A stretch of 6,116 nt of DNA from Bacteroidia bacterium (GTDB lineage: Bacteria; Bacteroidota; Bacteroidia; Bacteroidales; Prolixibacteraceae). Positions within the stretch are counted from its first letter, which is position 1. Every line of letters begins with the position of its first letter. The stretch is from contig JANYJT010000224.1 in the NCBI GenBank assembly GCA_025358395.1, positions 1 through 6,116 of the forward strand, given 5' to 3'. Under the pieces are notes generated by a model that did not search any database, had not been told where the DNA came from, and saw nothing but the letters and a program-made list of their open reading frames with translations. Position numbers and translations under genes: made by a program. This document shows positions 325 through 6,116 of this stretch, in pieces.

Positions 325-500
325 CTAATCTGTGAAAATTTGTGTAATCAGTGGTAGGGCTGGGGTTCATTTGTGTCTATAAGTTTTCAATTTGTGTAAT
401 CCGTCTTAATTGTGTTTTTTAATTCGTGTAATTTGTGTAATCCGTGGTTGGGTGGTGTTCATCTGCGTCCATTTGTTTTTAATCTGTGCAATTCGTGGTA
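325..500. repeat. Cluster of degenerate TGTGTAATCCGTGG intergenic repeats
   Basis: Copies of AATTTGTGTAATCCGTGG-like sequence recur at about 337-355 (…AATCAGTGGT), 389-404 (…AATCCGT), 430-448 (…AATCCGTGGTT) and 481-500 (AATCTGTGCAATTCGTGGTA). Two 51-base segments, 337-387 and 430-480, align along their full length with about one compensating indel. They share the order TGTGTAAT, GTGGT, GGG, GTTCAT, TGTGTC/TGCGTC, TTTT. So this is a tandem duplication of a composite unit, with period about 93 bases. The family resembles interspersed 'CTGTGTAATCCGTGG … TCATCTGCGTCC' repeats that I recall from intergenic regions of Bacteroidota. No open frame or stable hairpin explains it. Confidence 0.7.
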
Positions 501-711
501 AAGGCATAAGCTATTCTGTGTTATATGTAGAAAAGACGCACAATTATTACAAACGTTCGGGGGTAATACGCCTGATTGTTGCATAAACACATGAACTCCG
601 TGCCAACGACACGTTCCGAAGGGTAAACGGCTTTGGAATCCGGTAATCAACTTTTGGCCGAACGATACTGGTAGAAGGTTGGAAAAGCAAAAGCGTCAAT
701 TTCTGAAAATT
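501..711. other. Gene-free stretch with nothing recognised
   Basis: I see no convincing gene, RNA gene or terminator here. Two minus-strand frames are open (747-547 and 650-459), but they overlap each other, carry no recognisable domain and lack signal-peptide or membrane character. Base composition differs from the flanking repeats: it is more balanced, with several CG-containing words. It could be leader DNA or a decayed repeat. A short inverted pair, CGTTCGG (554-560) and CCGAACG (658-664), is too short and too far apart to call a structure. Confidence 0.5.
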
Positions 712-733
712 TATTTTTGAGCATCGTAATGCT
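712..733 (+). promoter_or_regulatory. Possible operon promoter box plus adjacent inverted repeat
   Basis: TATTTTTG at 712-719 matches the Bacteroidota -7 consensus TAnnTTTG exactly. Directly after it sits the inverted repeat AGCAT-CGTA-ATGCT (720-733), with five-base arms and a four-base spacer, where transcription would begin. It could be an operator or a small leader hairpin. The weak point is the -33 element: the nearest TTG (679-681) is 30 bases upstream, farther than usual. The leader to the kinase ATG would be about 65-70 bases. Confidence 0.3.
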
Positions 734-790
734 TGGGACAGGCGCAAATAGCTATTCCCCGTCCGGCATCAAATTAAAATATTTCGGCAA

Positions 791-1849
791 ATGACATTCA
801 ATACTTTTAATCGACTTTTGCAAATTCGTCCTGTCAATCATTTGATTTATTGGATCTTGTTTGTTATTATCGGTTCTTATATTTTCAGTTACCAGCAAAA
901 TTTTCCCTATCATTTTTACCTTCTCAATCTGGCAGTTCACCTTCCGGTACTAATTCTTTATACCTATTTCGTGGTCTATGTGCTGGTACCTAACTTCCTT
1001 TTAATGGGAAGGTATTTCAGCTTTTTGGGGTCACTAGCACTCTCATCTGCAATGGCATCTCTGTTAAAATTGTATATCAGCAGGAATATTTATTACGCAC
1101 TTTTTATTCCGATGGCCCTGCATCCCAAAGATTGGTACACGGCAGATGGCTTTTTGATCAATTTACTTTGGATTATGGGACCAACGGTTCTCTTTGCCAT
1201 GTTCAAATACTACAAAAACTGGATCAGGAGTCAGGATATTACCAACGAAGCTGAACGCAAACGCCTGGCCACCGAATTGCAGGTGCTGAAAGGGCAGTTG
1301 AATCCCCATTTTCTATTTAATACGCTGAACAACCTTTACTCCCTTGCATTGAGCAAAAGTAGCAAGACCGCTGTTGTCATTGCCAAGATGTCTGAGATGT
1401 TTCAGTACATTATTTATGAATGCAATGCCACGGAGGTGCCCGTTTCGAAGGAGATTAAGCTCATCGAAAATTACATTGAACTTGAGCAAATCAGGTATTC
1501 AGACCGTCTCTCTGTAAAATTTGAAAAAGATGTGGATAACATGAATCACCTGATTCCGCCAATGTTGCTCTATTCATATGTGGAGAATTGCTTTAAGCAT
1601 GGCAGCAGTAAGGATCCTGACATGCCCTGGATCAAGATTTCACTTCGTGTCAAAAAAGGCAGCCTGACTTTCGAGGCGCTCAACAGCATTCCGGAAAATA
1701 GCATTGGGATAAATACCGAAGGAGTCGGTTTGCTGAACGGCAAAAGACGGCTCGAACTGATCTATCCGCAGAATCACAGGTTAACGATTCGCGAAGAAAA
1801 CAATGAATTTTTTGTCAGACTCGACATTACAAAATACAACGGGCGATGA
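791..1849 (+). CDS. LytS/YehU-family membrane sensor histidine kinase
   Basis: The 352-residue protein has about four membrane helices (near residues 18-34, 42-66, 76-95 and 120-139). A short charged linker (about 145-166) follows, then a His_kinase (PF06580-type) domain with the hallmark QLNPHFLFNTLNNLYSLAL. His173 is the predicted phospho-acceptor. A HATPase_c domain follows: the N-box PPMLLYSYVENCFKHG (256-271, with E265 and N266) and a glycine box GVGLLNGKRRL (from G311, G313). All catalytic motifs look intact, so it should autophosphorylate at the inner membrane. Such kinases normally signal to a LytTR-type response regulator, but none is encoded in this window. The ATG at 791 is chosen because no in-frame start lies just upstream and the N-terminus leads directly into helix 1. 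No Shine-Dalgarno is evident, as is usual in Bacteroidota. The stop overlaps the next gene's start (ATGA), implying translational coupling. The ligand cannot be read from the sequence. Confidence 0.93.
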   Translation: MTFNTFNRLLQIRPVNHLIYWILFVIIGSYIFSYQQNFPYHFYLLNLAVHLPVLILYTYFVVYVLVPNFLLMGRYFSFLGSLALSSAMASLLKLYISRNIYYALFIPMALHPKDWYTADGFLINLLWIMGPTVLFAMFKYYKNWIRSQDITNEAERKRLATELQVLKGQLNPHFLFNTLNNLYSLALSKSSKTAVVIAKMSEMFQYIIYECNATEVPVSKEIKLIENYIELEQIRYSDRLSVKFEKDVDNMNHLIPPMLLYSYVENCFKHGSSKDPDMPWIKISLRVKKGSLTFEALNSIPENSIGINTEGVGLLNGKRRLELIYPQNHRLTIREENNEFFVRLDITKYNGR

Positions 1850-3723
1850 GATACCTACTGCTATTGATTTTCATTTTATCCGCAGGTTGTTTGAACGAGA
1901 AACAGCAATCCGAATTGATTTTGCGCCATTATATCGATAAAAATGTCGACTTAATCCGGAATTTTACAATGGAGAGTATGGATGCACTTTGGAACGTAAA
2001 CATATCTGGCAATGAGCGCGATTACAAGAAACTCCTTGAGCTGGAATTGGTTTTTAACAGTTCAAACCAAAATAAATCAGGTCAATTTTCCCCTGATAAG
2101 TTTATTCCATTTACCGAAAATGTCTTCACAAAAGAAAAGGATTTCGAGCTGCTCAGGAAACTAAAGAACTCTGAACTGATTACTGATCCAGCGCTGAAAA
2201 GGCAGTTGACTGTCCTGTATCAATCTTTTATTGGGCCGCAGGTAGAAGCAAGCAGGTACAAAAATTTGAGGATTGCCGAAACCAAAGTGTGGCAGTCTTT
2301 TTCTGCCATTCAGGTAGAGGAGGGTAACATGAAATATACCGGAGCTCAGCTCGATTCGATCCGTAAATATTCGACCGACACGGCTCTCCTGAAAAGGGTC
2401 TACACTGCCTACCGGGATAAAGGCAAACAAATTGCCGGAGACATCATCCGGATGGTGAAGACCAGAAACGAATTTGCCCGCGAATTTGGCTACACCGATT
2501 ACTATCAGCTGGCTCTTGAAAACAAGGATCAGACCCCGGCGATGATCAAAACATTGCTGGATACGATAGAATTGAAAACGCGCAAACCTTTTTTTGAGGC
2601 GAAATTGCAGGTTGATAGGATGTTGGCCAAGAAATACCATATTCGTAAAGAGGAGCTTCTCTCCTTCCATTACAACGATGAGCGTGCCAGCTACCTGCCG
2701 CAGCGTTTTTCGGCAAAGATGGATTCCTTGTACAGCAAGCAAGATCCCATCGAACTGGCTTCCGGCTTCTTCAATGGCATAGGACTCCCGGTGCAGGACG
2801 TCATCGACAACAGCGACCTGAAAACGAAGAAAGGTAAATCGACTGCAACGAATTTTTTCAATGTAGATTTCACGAACGATTTGCGCATGATGGCCAGCGT
2901 CCAGGAGAACAACGATGGGATGAGAAAGATGATGCACCTGTGTGGCCATGCTTCACATTTCAAAAATATTTCGGATACCATTCCATACCTTTTGAAAAAT
3001 CCGAATTCGGTGATTGTGGAAGGGATTGGTAGCTTTTTTGAGAATTTGACCTTGAACACGCTTTGGTTACAACGTGAATTTGACATGGATTCAATTAGAA
3101 GCCGTGAGTATAAGCTGCTTTGCATGCACTTTATTCAGGTCGACCGGATATACCGGTTCAGGAGACTTCTTGTGAAATCAGCCTTTGAACGTGAGGTATA
3201 CCGGAATTCGGACCAAAATCTCGGAGCATTGTGGTACCAGCTTGAAGAAAAGTATCTGGGAATCAAACCGCCCCAGGATCCAAACACAACTGATTGGGCA
3301 ACTAATACCTACATGACCAGCTTCTCCTGCACTGTTCACAACTTCGTGCTTGCTGAGTTGTTTGCCGCACAATTGCGGCACTACCTGGAGAAGAATATTC
3401 TGACGGGAACGAACCCGGTCTATCAGGACAACAAGAAAGTAGGTGAATTCCTGGTTTCTCTGATTTACCAATACGGAGATTTCATCACCTGGGATCGACT
3501 TTTTGAGCAGGCTACCGGCGAACCGTTAAACCCAATCTATTTTGCCAACTACTTAACTCTTGGTGATAAAGAATATCGAATAGCCAGAATTTTATCGCAT
3601 CAGTTTAAAAAAAGAAATACCAAAGAGGAAAATATGAGTCCAACCGAATCCGCCGACTGGCGGATGGATATTGGCTTCGCAGATTTTCAATTCCATGTAA
3701 CCTTTAAAATGCAAATTATCTAG
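1846..3723 (+). CDS. M2-family (ACE-like) lipoprotein, predicted catalytically inactive
   Basis: The 625-residue protein starts with a lipoprotein signal peptide (MRYLLLLIFILSAGC; lipobox cysteine C15), so it should be acylated and envelope-anchored. The rest follows the helical M2 peptidase (angiotensin-converting enzyme) plan. A GK…DLRMMA…N segment (330-355) leads to the zinc site MMHLCGH (362-368), then PYLLKNP…VEGIGSFF, with HNFVLAELFAAQL near 498-510. Zinc ligands are kept: H364, H368 and E392, the last exactly 24 residues after H368 as in ACE (H387/E411). The catalytic Glu of HExxH is L365. By ungapped comparison with ACE and with bacterial M2 sequences as I remember them, ACE His353 corresponds to A334, and Lys511, His513 and Tyr520 to about N487, Y489 and T496. 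No other HExxH exists in the protein. It is therefore probably a zinc-binding pseudo-peptidase. Residues from about 575 form a tail of about 50 residues that I do not recognise. It overlaps the kinase gene by four bases and ends two bases before the TBDR gene. Family assignment is firm; inactivity is inferred. Confidence 0.85.
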   Translation: MRYLLLLIFILSAGCLNEKQQSELILRHYIDKNVDLIRNFTMESMDALWNVNISGNERDYKKLLELELVFNSSNQNKSGQFSPDKFIPFTENVFTKEKDFELLRKLKNSELITDPALKRQLTVLYQSFIGPQVEASRYKNLRIAETKVWQSFSAIQVEEGNMKYTGAQLDSIRKYSTDTALLKRVYTAYRDKGKQIAGDIIRMVKTRNEFAREFGYTDYYQLALENKDQTPAMIKTLLDTIELKTRKPFFEAKLQVDRMLAKKYHIRKEELLSFHYNDERASYLPQRFSAKMDSLYSKQDPIELASGFFNGIGLPVQDVIDNSDLKTKKGKSTATNFFNVDFTNDLRMMASVQENNDGMRKMMHLCGHASHFKNISDTIPYLLKNPNSVIVEGIGSFFENLTLNTLWLQREFDMDSIRSREYKLLCMHFIQVDRIYRFRRLLVKSAFEREVYRNSDQNLGALWYQLEEKYLGIKPPQDPNTTDWATNTYMTSFSCTVHNFVLAELFAAQLRHYLEKNILTGTNPVYQDNKKVGEFLVSLIYQYGDFITWDRLFEQATGEPLNPIYFANYLTLGDKEYRIARILSHQFKKRNTKEENMSPTESADWRMDIGFADFQFHVTFKMQII

Positions 3724-3725
3724 AA

Positions 3726-6116
3726 ATGAAAAAGACCGCTTTAACATCGCTGATGATAATAATGTTCATGACACCGACTTTCAGTCAAAAATTTTCGCAA
3801 ACCGTAAGAGGCACAATACTTGATACAGACAGTAAAATGCCCTTGATAGGAGCTACTGTTAAAATAATCGGCACCAACCCATTGATTGGTACGGCAACAG
3901 ATGTAAACGGTAATTTTAGATTGGAAAACATACCAATTGGCAGGATTACAATACAATTATCTTATCTGGGTTATGAGGCGAAAATGATTCCCAATATTGA
4001 GGTTAACTCTGGCAAGGAGGTCGTCTTAAACGTAAACTTGCAGGAATCTGATGTAAAACTGAATGAGGTGATTGTTAGACCCGGCAGGCAAAAAGGGGAG
4101 GCAAAAAACGACATGTCATTGCTAAGTACACATTCTATCTCCTTTGAAGAAACGAAACGTTACACTGGCGGCATGGATGACCCTGCCCGGGTGGTTTCCA
4201 GTTTTGCCGGAATAGCTTCTACTCCCGATGGAAGCAGTGATATCATTGTACGGGGAAATTCACCCAAATACATGCAGTGGCGCCTGGAAGGGGTAGAAAT
4301 CTCAAGCCCCTATCACATGGATGATCAAAATGCGTCATTTGGAGCTCTTACTGCACTAAATAACAACTTGTTAACGACTTCCGATTTTTACACCGGCGCA
4401 TTTTCTCCGGAGTATGGCGATGTTTTAGCGGGCGTTTACGACGTAAAGCTTAGGCCAGGTAACAACGAAAAATTTGAAGCGACTTTGGGAGTAGGTATTA
4501 TGGGTACCGACCTAACCCTTGAGGGACCTTTTAAAAATGGATATGCGGGCTCGTACCTCATAAATTACAGATACTCAACAATTAGCCTAATCAAAAAACT
4601 TGGTTTGGTTGATGTTGAAGGAGCAGTAGATTATCAGGATCTAACATTTAAAGTTGTTTTGCCTTCAAAAAAAGCAGGTATTTTTTCTTTCTACGGTTTG
4701 GGAGGGTTAAGTGGCGTCTCAATGAAGAACATGACACCAACAGGTCTATCCACTCCTGGCAGCACCATCAAAAGCGCGCTAATCAGCAGAGATTTCGAAA
4801 AGGCTAATTTCCTGTCAAATCTGGGCATGAACCATACCTATTCAATGAATGCCAACAGCTTTATCAATACGTCAATTTCCTATTCGGGAAATGGCATCAG
4901 TGATGATATTTTTGAGTCGGATACAATAAGAATTCGTGATAGTAAAGGTGTATTTCTGAGAGATTCTGTTACCAATAAAATCCATACTTTTAAAAGTAGG
5001 ATAACCAATTCGGCTTATAGGGCAGCGATAACCTATAGCAATAAAATCAACGCCAAAAACAAAATTCAAATTGGTTCAAAATATACTTTGTATAGCTACA
5101 ATTACAATCAGAGCATGTTTTATGACGCTGCGAATGCTATGTTGGATGTAACAAATTTCAAAAATTATGCAAGCGCAATAAATAATTTCATAAGCTGGAA
5201 ACACGGTTTTAATGATAAAATCTCCTTTGTTGCCGGATTACACAATACGAATGCTTTGATCAACAACAAAAGTACGATTGAACCAAGATTAGCCATCAAC
5301 TGGAAGCTAAACAGTAGGAATTCGCTTCATGCCGGGTACGGCAAACACAGTACCATGGAAAGTATTCACAACTACTATACTAAAATTTTGCAGCCTAACG
5401 GAAGTTTCATTGAGCCGAATAAAAACCTCGACTTGCTTAAAGCTGACCATTTTGTGCTGGGTTATGAAAAACGCTTCTCAGAACATTTAATGGCGAAGGT
5501 TGAAGTTTACTATCAAAACTTGTACAATTTACCTGTAGAAAACAATGATACAAGCTACTACTCGACCATTAACGAAGGTATCGATTACAGGTATGTCGCA
5601 TTGGTAAACAAAGGAATTGGAAAGAACTATGGAATAGAAAGTACCCTGGAACGGTTTTTCGATAACAATTACTACTTTTTAATGAATGCTTCGTTGTTCG
5701 AATCAAAATATAAATCGTTGGAAGGCGTATGGAGAAATACGCGTTATAACAACAATTATATAGTCAATATTTTATTTGGTAAAGAATTTAAGAACCTTGG
5801 GAAGAAGAATAATCAAACGCTTGCAATAAATGCCAAAGCATTTTTCGAAGGAGGCCAAAGATTCATCCCTTTGTTAAGAGATGCACAGGGAAATGTAGCT
5901 GTTGACCCCACGAAAGACCGGTATTGGGATTATAAAAAAGCCTACAACGAAAAGTTAGATAACATTTACCAACTAAATTTATCGGTAAGCTACAAGTTTA
6001 ACAAGACAAGAGCCACTCATGAGATATTCCTCGATATGATGAACATTACCGACAACAAGAGCAGGATGTCGGAATATTACGATGAGACCAAGCCCAACAA
6101 AATCGGTTACCTGACA
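3726..6116 (+). CDS. TonB-dependent outer-membrane receptor with carboxypeptidase-regulatory-like domain (3' end cut off)
   Basis: The frame is open for 797 codons from the ATG at 3726 to the edge. The order is: signal peptide MKKTALTSLMIIMFMTPTFS, with likely cleavage before Q21; a CarboxypepD_reg-like beta-sandwich (about 26-108, VRGTILD … PLIGATVKI … TDVNGNFRLENIPIG … YLGYE); the segment LNEVIVR (112-118) leading into the plug; and the plug (about 113-250) with DDPARVVSSFAGI (151-163), IIVRGNSPK (173-181), LEGVEI (187-192) and SPEYGDVLAGVYDVKLRPGN. The remainder is a 22-strand-type barrel rich in alternating aromatic residues. The last residues, YYDETKPNKIGYLT, resemble the near-terminal segment of this TBDR group, so probably only about 15 residues are missing. 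No SusD-like partner is seen here, so it may not be a SusC-type glycan importer. It would import a ligand across the outer membrane using TonB-ExbBD energy; the substrate is unknown. It starts two bases after the M2-like gene, so the three genes are very likely co-transcribed. Confidence 0.92.
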   Translation, partial: MKKTALTSLMIIMFMTPTFSQKFSQTVRGTILDTDSKMPLIGATVKIIGTNPLIGTATDVNGNFRLENIPIGRITIQLSYLGYEAKMIPNIEVNSGKEVVLNVNLQESDVKLNEVIVRPGRQKGEAKNDMSLLSTHSISFEETKRYTGGMDDPARVVSSFAGIASTPDGSSDIIVRGNSPKYMQWRLEGVEISSPYHMDDQNASFGALTALNNNLLTTSDFYTGAFSPEYGDVLAGVYDVKLRPGNNEKFEATLGVGIMGTDLTLEGPFKNGYAGSYLINYRYSTISLIKKLGLVDVEGAVDYQDLTFKVVLPSKKAGIFSFYGLGGLSGVSMKNMTPTGLSTPGSTIKSALISRDFEKANFLSNLGMNHTYSMNANSFINTSISYSGNGISDDIFESDTIRIRDSKGVFLRDSVTNKIHTFKSRITNSAYRAAITYSNKINAKNKIQIGSKYTLYSYNYNQSMFYDAANAMLDVTNFKNYASAINNFISWKHGFNDKISFVAGLHNTNALINNKSTIEPRLAINWKLNSRNSLHAGYGKHSTMESIHNYYTKILQPNGSFIEPNKNLDLLKADHFVLGYEKRFSEHLMAKVEVYYQNLYNLPVENNDTSYYSTINEGIDYRYVALVNKGIGKNYGIESTLERFFDNNYYFLMNASLFESKYKSLEGVWRNTRYNNNYIVNILFGKEFKNLGKKNNQTLAINAKAFFEGGQRFIPLLRDAQGNVAVDPTKDRYWDYKKAYNEKLDNIYQLNLSVSYKFNKTRATHEIFLDMMNITDNKSRMSEYYDETKPNKIGYLT

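Follow-up and report, generated by a model that had tools for sequence, protein, structure and literature searches.

Members of the ACE-like M2 family that have lost activity are already known in animals, where ACN-1 is an inactive ACE-like protein of worms and collectrin is an inactive relative of ACE. We know of no two-component partner for collectrin or for the ACE-like proteins of Caenorhabditis elegans and Drosophila. Here we describe a bacterial case, its gene coupled to those of a two-component system, in a DNA stretch of 6,116 nucleotides from a bacterium of the Prolixibacteraceae (contig JANYJT010000224.1; this whole stretch is hereafter called the window). We consider it likely, with a probability of roughly two in three, that the M2-like protein encoded there is a lipid-anchored, extracytoplasmic pseudo-peptidase derived from M2 enzymes, acting as an accessory sensing or regulatory subunit of the LytS-type histidine kinase encoded upstream of it. 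If true, this would provide a bacterial system for studying the role of an ACE fold that no longer catalyses, possible peptide sensing by its cleft, and the question of whether a catalytic Glu, once lost, can be regained.

In mouse, rat, cow, and dog, ACE3 reads HQMGH and is predicted to be inactive, and predicted inactive ACE-like relatives of fly and worm are mentioned in the same paper (PMC1925091). Like the window protein, mammalian ACE3 has the M2 fold and keeps the zinc-binding His residues while its catalytic Glu is replaced. However, the ACE3 model keeps most of the active site and no link to a kinase is mentioned in the passages considered (PMC1925091), whereas the family of the window protein has Leu at the catalytic position, has lost further substrate residues, and is encoded in a bacterial operon. 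The inactive ACE-like proteins of C. elegans and Drosophila share with the window protein the prediction of inactivity but are animal proteins (PMC1925091). The terms ACN-1, collectrin, and histidine kinase are absent from the main text of a 2024 review on pseudo-metallopeptidases (PMC11266112). We found neither a bacterial M2 pseudo-peptidase nor one paired with a kinase described among the matches listed from an open-access library, a coverage outside which most subscription journals lie, and the best 10 of 69 literature matches on bacterial M2 proteins contained nothing relevant.

Among bacterial proteins, the ordinary M2 enzymes of the same group are homologous to the window protein, of similar length, 28–32% identical, and similar to its family in carrying an N-terminal Cys (28/29); unlike that family, they all have HExGH together with the His353, Lys511, His513, and Tyr520 residues of ACE. 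The likeness to M32 carboxypeptidases consists of a PF02074 match in the C-terminal part of the window protein, but this match is not full-length and the catalytic Glu is absent in the window. As for the genes around it, the family loci resemble LytS/LytTR two-component systems in combining a PF06580 kinase with a LytTR regulator. They differ from these in having the pseudo-peptidase gene between the kinase and regulator genes and, in 7 of 15 loci, three to four kinases in tandem.

Fold and active site of the M2-like protein

The best 50 structure matches listed for the window protein are ACE or ACE2, and the computed fold is of the ACE/ACE2 type over the whole domain, as had been proposed in an earlier reading of the DNA made without database searches (the sequence-only reading). 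The sole Pfam family above its cut-off is M32 (PF02074, 28.4 bits with a cut-off of 25.1, residues 457–571). The M2 model, PF01401, gives no match to the window protein at E ≤ 1, and many of its relatives carry a precomputed PF01401 assignment.

A protein search gave 123 matches, and 119 of the best 120 were aligned with the window protein, P0001 being left out as the window's own protein. Adding the M2-like proteins of 41 loci with examined surroundings (15 family loci and 26 ordinary-M2 loci) gave 161 rows, 132 from this family (117 from the first alignment and 15 from the loci) and 29 from ordinary M2 enzymes (3 and 26). Five of the 132 family rows are near-duplicates, and the remaining 127 give the same residue pattern. 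Positions are named by ACE residue numbers, which we take to be the equivalents of the aligned columns; when the ordinary enzyme P0118 is compared with human ACE, the HA, HExGH, EAI, and KxH blocks are in register.

The window protein retains the zinc ligands H364 and H368, within the motif HLCGH, and E392, 24 residues after the second His; motif, codons, and spacing are as the sequence-only reading gave them. Both zinc His residues were invariant in the first 120-row alignment, where the E392 column held Glu in 118 rows and Asp in 2, the catalytic position was Leu in 101, Glu in 16, and Met, Val, and Ile in one each, and HLCGH occurred in 40. In the enlarged alignment, each zinc His is kept in 130/132 family rows, and the third ligand is Glu in 129, Asp in 2, and Ala in 1.

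The residues for catalysis and substrate binding show the opposite pattern. At the position of the general base, Glu384 of ACE, the window has Leu, and 118 of the 132 family rows have a residue other than Glu; the remaining 14 read HEGxH. The window residues A334, N487, Y489, and T496 stand at the positions of His353, Lys511, His513, and Tyr520, an equivalence that is matched by H, K, H, and Y in 29/29 ordinary enzymes, which keep all zinc, catalytic, and substrate residues scored. Across the family, the His353 position is His in 0/132 rows, the Lys511 position Lys in 1/132, the His513 position His in 0/132 (Tyr 81, Phe 47, others 4), and the Tyr520 position Tyr in 3/132. Scored at its six positions, the pattern that the sequence-only reading had seen in one protein, zinc ligands kept with base and substrate grip lost, is therefore conserved across the family and is not a single random mutation. 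That reading further held that catalysis and grip were lost together. The His353 and His513 positions are indeed changed in 132/132 rows, but the 14 HEGxH rows, for which a regained Glu is favoured (see below), do not fit so simple an account.

The same 14 rows can be cited for the view that these proteins might still be enzymes, using another general base or other chemistry, whether among the HLxGH members or, at the least, within the HEGxH clade: the zinc ligands are intact, and each of the 14 carries Tyr at the position aligning with Tyr523. Some relatives are also named M2 family metallopeptidase or peptidyl-dipeptidase A. However, no HEGxH row has the His353, Lys511, His513, or Tyr520 residue, and equivalents of His353, His513, and Lys511 are missing from 132, 132, and 131 of the 132 rows. 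Small residues or Cys (Gly, Ala, Ser, or Cys) occupy the two positions that follow the base, and the base position itself is Leu, Val, Ile, or Met in the 118 non-Glu rows. Retained activity appears very unlikely to us, and the M2-family names given to these proteins are probably misleading. The pseudo-peptidase, keeping its fold and zinc site, should not hydrolyse peptides by the M2 mechanism and would be expected to be inactive in vitro.

With the other catalytic positions changed, His364, His368, and E392 are the best conserved of the former active-site residues (His in 130 and 130 rows and an acidic residue in 131, of 132). This would also suit a metal sensor whose three-ligand site, freed from catalysis, detects extracytoplasmic zinc or some other metal and controls the kinase accordingly. 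We find this unlikely, as loci L091 and L092 keep the operon without both zinc His residues and zinc may simply hold the fold together; no metal-transport gene was recognised among the few neighbours read or scanned.

Residues 73–95 form an insertion of about 20 residues, with 23 residues between the flanking columns in 129/132 family rows and 3 between the same columns in 29/29 ordinary M2 enzymes, which are without it. Its predicted local confidence is low (pLDDT <50), yet it is conserved. We infer that this segment may contact the kinase and that the cleft with its metal may be the ligand site.

Kinase and regulator genes at the family loci

At 15/15 family loci, the closest homologue of the window kinase lies directly upstream of the M2-like gene on the same strand, with a gap of −14 to +84 (to the first possible start codon) and an overlap in 13/15; in L088 the kinase is cut by the contig end. 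The kinase adjoining the M2-like gene in L001, a close relative of the window, is 89% identical to the window kinase, which is assigned to the LytS type by PF06580 and its NPHFLFN phospho-acceptor motif. The overlap of stop and start codons means that production of kinase and pseudo-peptidase should be linked. A homologue of the L001 response regulator, which is LytTR by Pfam (a test made on the L001 copy), follows in 15/15 loci, with a gap of 4 to 181. Unlike the window family, ordinary M2 enzymes have neither kinase nor regulator on the same strand in 26/26 loci over the stretch available, L103 and L104 being short contigs. The tie to a kinase that the sequence-only reading suggested is thus found at all 15 genome loci, and the usual third gene, the LytTR regulator, had escaped it. 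What had looked like one odd protein belongs to a conserved operon of kinase, pseudo-peptidase, and regulator.

On the opposite strand, the ordinary-M2 locus L109 has a kinase and a regulator, the latter 87 bases away, L112 has a regulator-like gene 2.9 kb away, and L107 has a weak receptor match.

The group, probably Prolixibacteraceae to judge by the names that some matches carry, was sampled with 140 genomes; 15 of them contain the kinase at E ≤ 1e-70, and these are the same 15 that hold a family member. The M2 search of these genomes gave 18 at E ≤ 1e-100; for three of these, G409, G413, and G415, the match is an ordinary M2 enzyme, as is the second match of G404. Samples of the class (395 genomes) and of the order (393), with the surroundings of 2 class and 20 order matches examined, gave no further kinase-linked locus besides that of G001, and a contig scan with the single window protein found one locus.

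In L079, L080, L081, L084, and L092, the kinase copy next to the main kinase reads PRF for PHF, with Arg in place of the phospho-acceptor His; a pattern search found no motif in the copy beside the main kinase of L083 and L086. Judged by this motif, the PRF copy has probably lost its phospho-acceptor and would be a pseudo-kinase beside a pseudo-peptidase.

We propose that the cleft of the pseudo-peptidase, usually metal-bound, would bind a ligand, which could be a peptide, a different molecule that bears a carboxylate, or a partner protein. This bound or closed conformation would then be relayed to the membrane portion of the kinase, possibly via the 73–95 insertion, and the kinase would phosphorylate the LytTR regulator. 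By hydropathy, the window kinase has hydrophobic segments within its first 140 residues and no apparent large extracytoplasmic domain, so that an outside partner would make sense. The sequence-only reading, which put forward a repurposed binding or sensing protein, was right at its core, although its tie to a receptor was wrong and its joint loss too simple.

Several points weigh against such a sensing subunit. The lipid anchor, called at Cys15 by the general lipobox rule, and the topology are predictions read from sequence, and physical contact with the kinase is something that we infer. Residual or new activity is conceivable for the 14 HEGxH members. The co-occurrence depends on the cut-offs used, below which more distant kinases or M2-like genes go uncounted. 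In the window itself, a TonB-dependent receptor gene and not a response regulator gene follows, and the window ends inside it. Finally, gene order alone also fits a co-regulated protein that is not part of a sensor, such as an inhibitor, a scaffold, or a peptide-binding surface protein co-expressed with the kinase. The gene overlap by itself implies co-expression alone, the receptor gene of the window starts 2 bases after the M2-like gene, and Bacteroidota lipoproteins often act at the cell surface. We nevertheless judge such an effector rather unlikely, because the position between kinase and regulator looks more like that of a signalling part, the protein and this single kinase subfamily co-occur (15 and 15 of 140), and the receptor neighbour is not conserved.

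History of the catalytic Glu and integrity of the gene

When rooted on the ordinary M2 enzymes, the family forms one clade (100/100, in the tree without L091 and L092). HLxGH is widespread across this family, and all HEGxH members fall into a single clade within it, beside L090 (HLAGH) and P0115 (HLGGH). A four-residue deletion at 327–330 is common to the 14 HEGxH rows, L090, and P0115 and is found in no other of the 161 rows. The fewest changes at the Glu position on the tree are two and, given the ordinary-M2 root, these would be one loss of Glu and one return. The careful tree contains 48 of the 161 rows, namely the 78 rows below about 80% identity minus L091, L092, P0120, and 27 that were thinned. 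Forcing all non-Glu members into one clade makes it 33 log units worse (approximately unbiased (AU) test, p-AU 0.0501), and a variant of the constraint leaving out L090 and P0115 gives p-AU 0.0207; a simple single loss of Glu is thus moderately disfavoured. In the kinase tree, rooted on the tandem paralogues, L089 and L090 stand together among the HLGGH kinases (group 88/97), although the AU test of the alternative placement is weak (p 0.254) and does not exclude it. From these sequence comparisons, a regained Glu in the HEGxH clade is favoured but not proven.

L091 reads RLCGF, with Ala at the E392 position, and L092 reads FLCSQ, with Glu there; both have lost the two zinc His residues and kept kinase and regulator. 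Their branches are long, basal, and meeting in the 78-row tree, and their placement is unsure. With the L091 protein as query, no further close member of its kind came up, the six other matches being 22–30% identical. Together with the non-Glu majority, these two loci indicate that the role in the operon can persist without the catalytic residues, as in almost every member, and in a few cases without the metal site. A more sweeping account, possible although we would sooner doubt it than adopt it, is that of a whole bacterial family of ACE-fold proteins turned into obligate sensor subunits of a membrane kinase, in which the peptide cleft and zinc would serve to trap a ligand and the kinase would sense the closure; one clade would have re-evolved the HExxH Glu, and two lineages would have given up the zinc His residues and still play their part in signalling.

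Close orthologues with an intact HExxH would have spoken for a sequencing error or a recent mutation in the window. Instead, the relatives L001 and L087 share HLCGH, with the Leu codons CTT and CTG, and HLGGH relatives encode this Leu by CTT, CTC, or TTG. A sequencing error at the Glu codon is rejected on account of these synonymous codons. Seven pairs were compared for the ratio of nonsynonymous to synonymous rates (dN/dS), of which three were not saturated; these gave 0.149 (window and L001), 0.147, and 0.093 for the M2-like gene and 0.104, 0.034, and 0.059 for the kinase, values that point to selection on the M2-like gene and not to its decay.

It is extremely unlikely that the gene is a pseudogene or an assembly artefact. 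Such a reading could draw on its 3′ end, which departs from L001 past 3548, with a tail unlike those of the relatives P0002 and P0003. Against this, the frame is open over 625 codons, dN/dS to L001 is 0.149, and HLCGH recurs in 40/120 rows. P0002 moreover ends in VTFKKQII where the window has VTFKMQII, a similar stretch which suggests that the 3′ junction is not private to this contig.

Further features of the window and neighbouring genes

The positions considered in the sequence-only reading, 2836–3369, cover the active-site part alone; the gene and operon extend further (Table 1). None of the three window proteins has an NCBIfam match.

Table 1 Features of the window, by position on the 6,116-nucleotide stretch
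Feature	Position	Strand	Basis or remark
LytS-type membrane histidine kinase, 352 amino acids	791..1849	+	PF06580, E 6.8e-25; phospho-acceptor motif NPHFLFN
M2 (ACE-like) pseudo-peptidase lipoprotein, 625 amino acids	1846..3723	+	start overlaps kinase stop (ATGA)
Predicted lipid-anchored Cys15, LSAGC lipobox	1888..1890	+	sequence; family N-terminus consensus CLNEKQQ
Residues 73–95, family-specific insertion FxPDxF...NVFT, candidate contact segment	2062..2130	+	alignment
A334, position of ACE His353	2845..2847	+	alignment
HLCGH (His364, Leu365, His368), CAC CTG TGT GGC CAT	2935..2949	+	sequence
E392 (GAA), third zinc ligand, equivalent to ACE Glu411	3019..3021	+	sequence, alignment
N487, Y489, and T496 at the positions of ACE Lys511, His513, and Tyr520	3304..3333	+	alignment
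C-terminal tail beyond the conserved domain, residues 572–625, poorly predicted	3559..3720	+	structure prediction, comparison with relatives
TonB-dependent receptor, carboxypeptidase-regulatory-like N-domain, weak plug match	3726..6116	+	runs off the window

DNA similarity between the window and L001 covers 30–251 and 419–3548 and then ends. From 3549 to 3723, the tail of the gene differs from L001, P0002, and P0003 as if read in another frame after a run of A; this stretch falls outside the conserved domain.

The sequence-only reading had also tied the protein to the TonB-dependent receptor. As a partner the receptor is rejected: it stands beside the gene in 0/15 family loci, its homologues are widespread (73/140 genomes at E ≤ 1e-60), and the closest one (80%) lies in another context, among genes that read as ABC-transporter-like from their translations, in G415, a genome in which neither the kinase nor a family member was found. 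The receptor gene may have moved between genomes.

A small secreted protein of about 150 amino acids (L001:10810-11268) is encoded near the operon in 10/15 loci, either ahead of the kinases or after the regulator. At E ≤ 0.001 it has 142 homologues, and Foldseek gives no match at that threshold; no Pfam family scores above its cut-off. All 60 aligned relatives of the L001 protein keep two Cys. Several M2 and small-protein matches lie on contigs of the same size (32,388, which is L001; 34,409; 15,081; 5,218), hinting at further linked cases. Upstream of the small-protein gene, paired CGTT-type direct repeats 38–42 bases apart are present in 6/10 loci (L080, L081, L082, L083, L086, and L089), a descriptive count, as these related sequences were themselves the source of the motif. 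By their sequence, these repeats could be candidate LytTR binding sites. A dispersed repeat (TGTGTAATCCGTGG-like) occupies 312–497 of the window and has several further matches elsewhere in L001.
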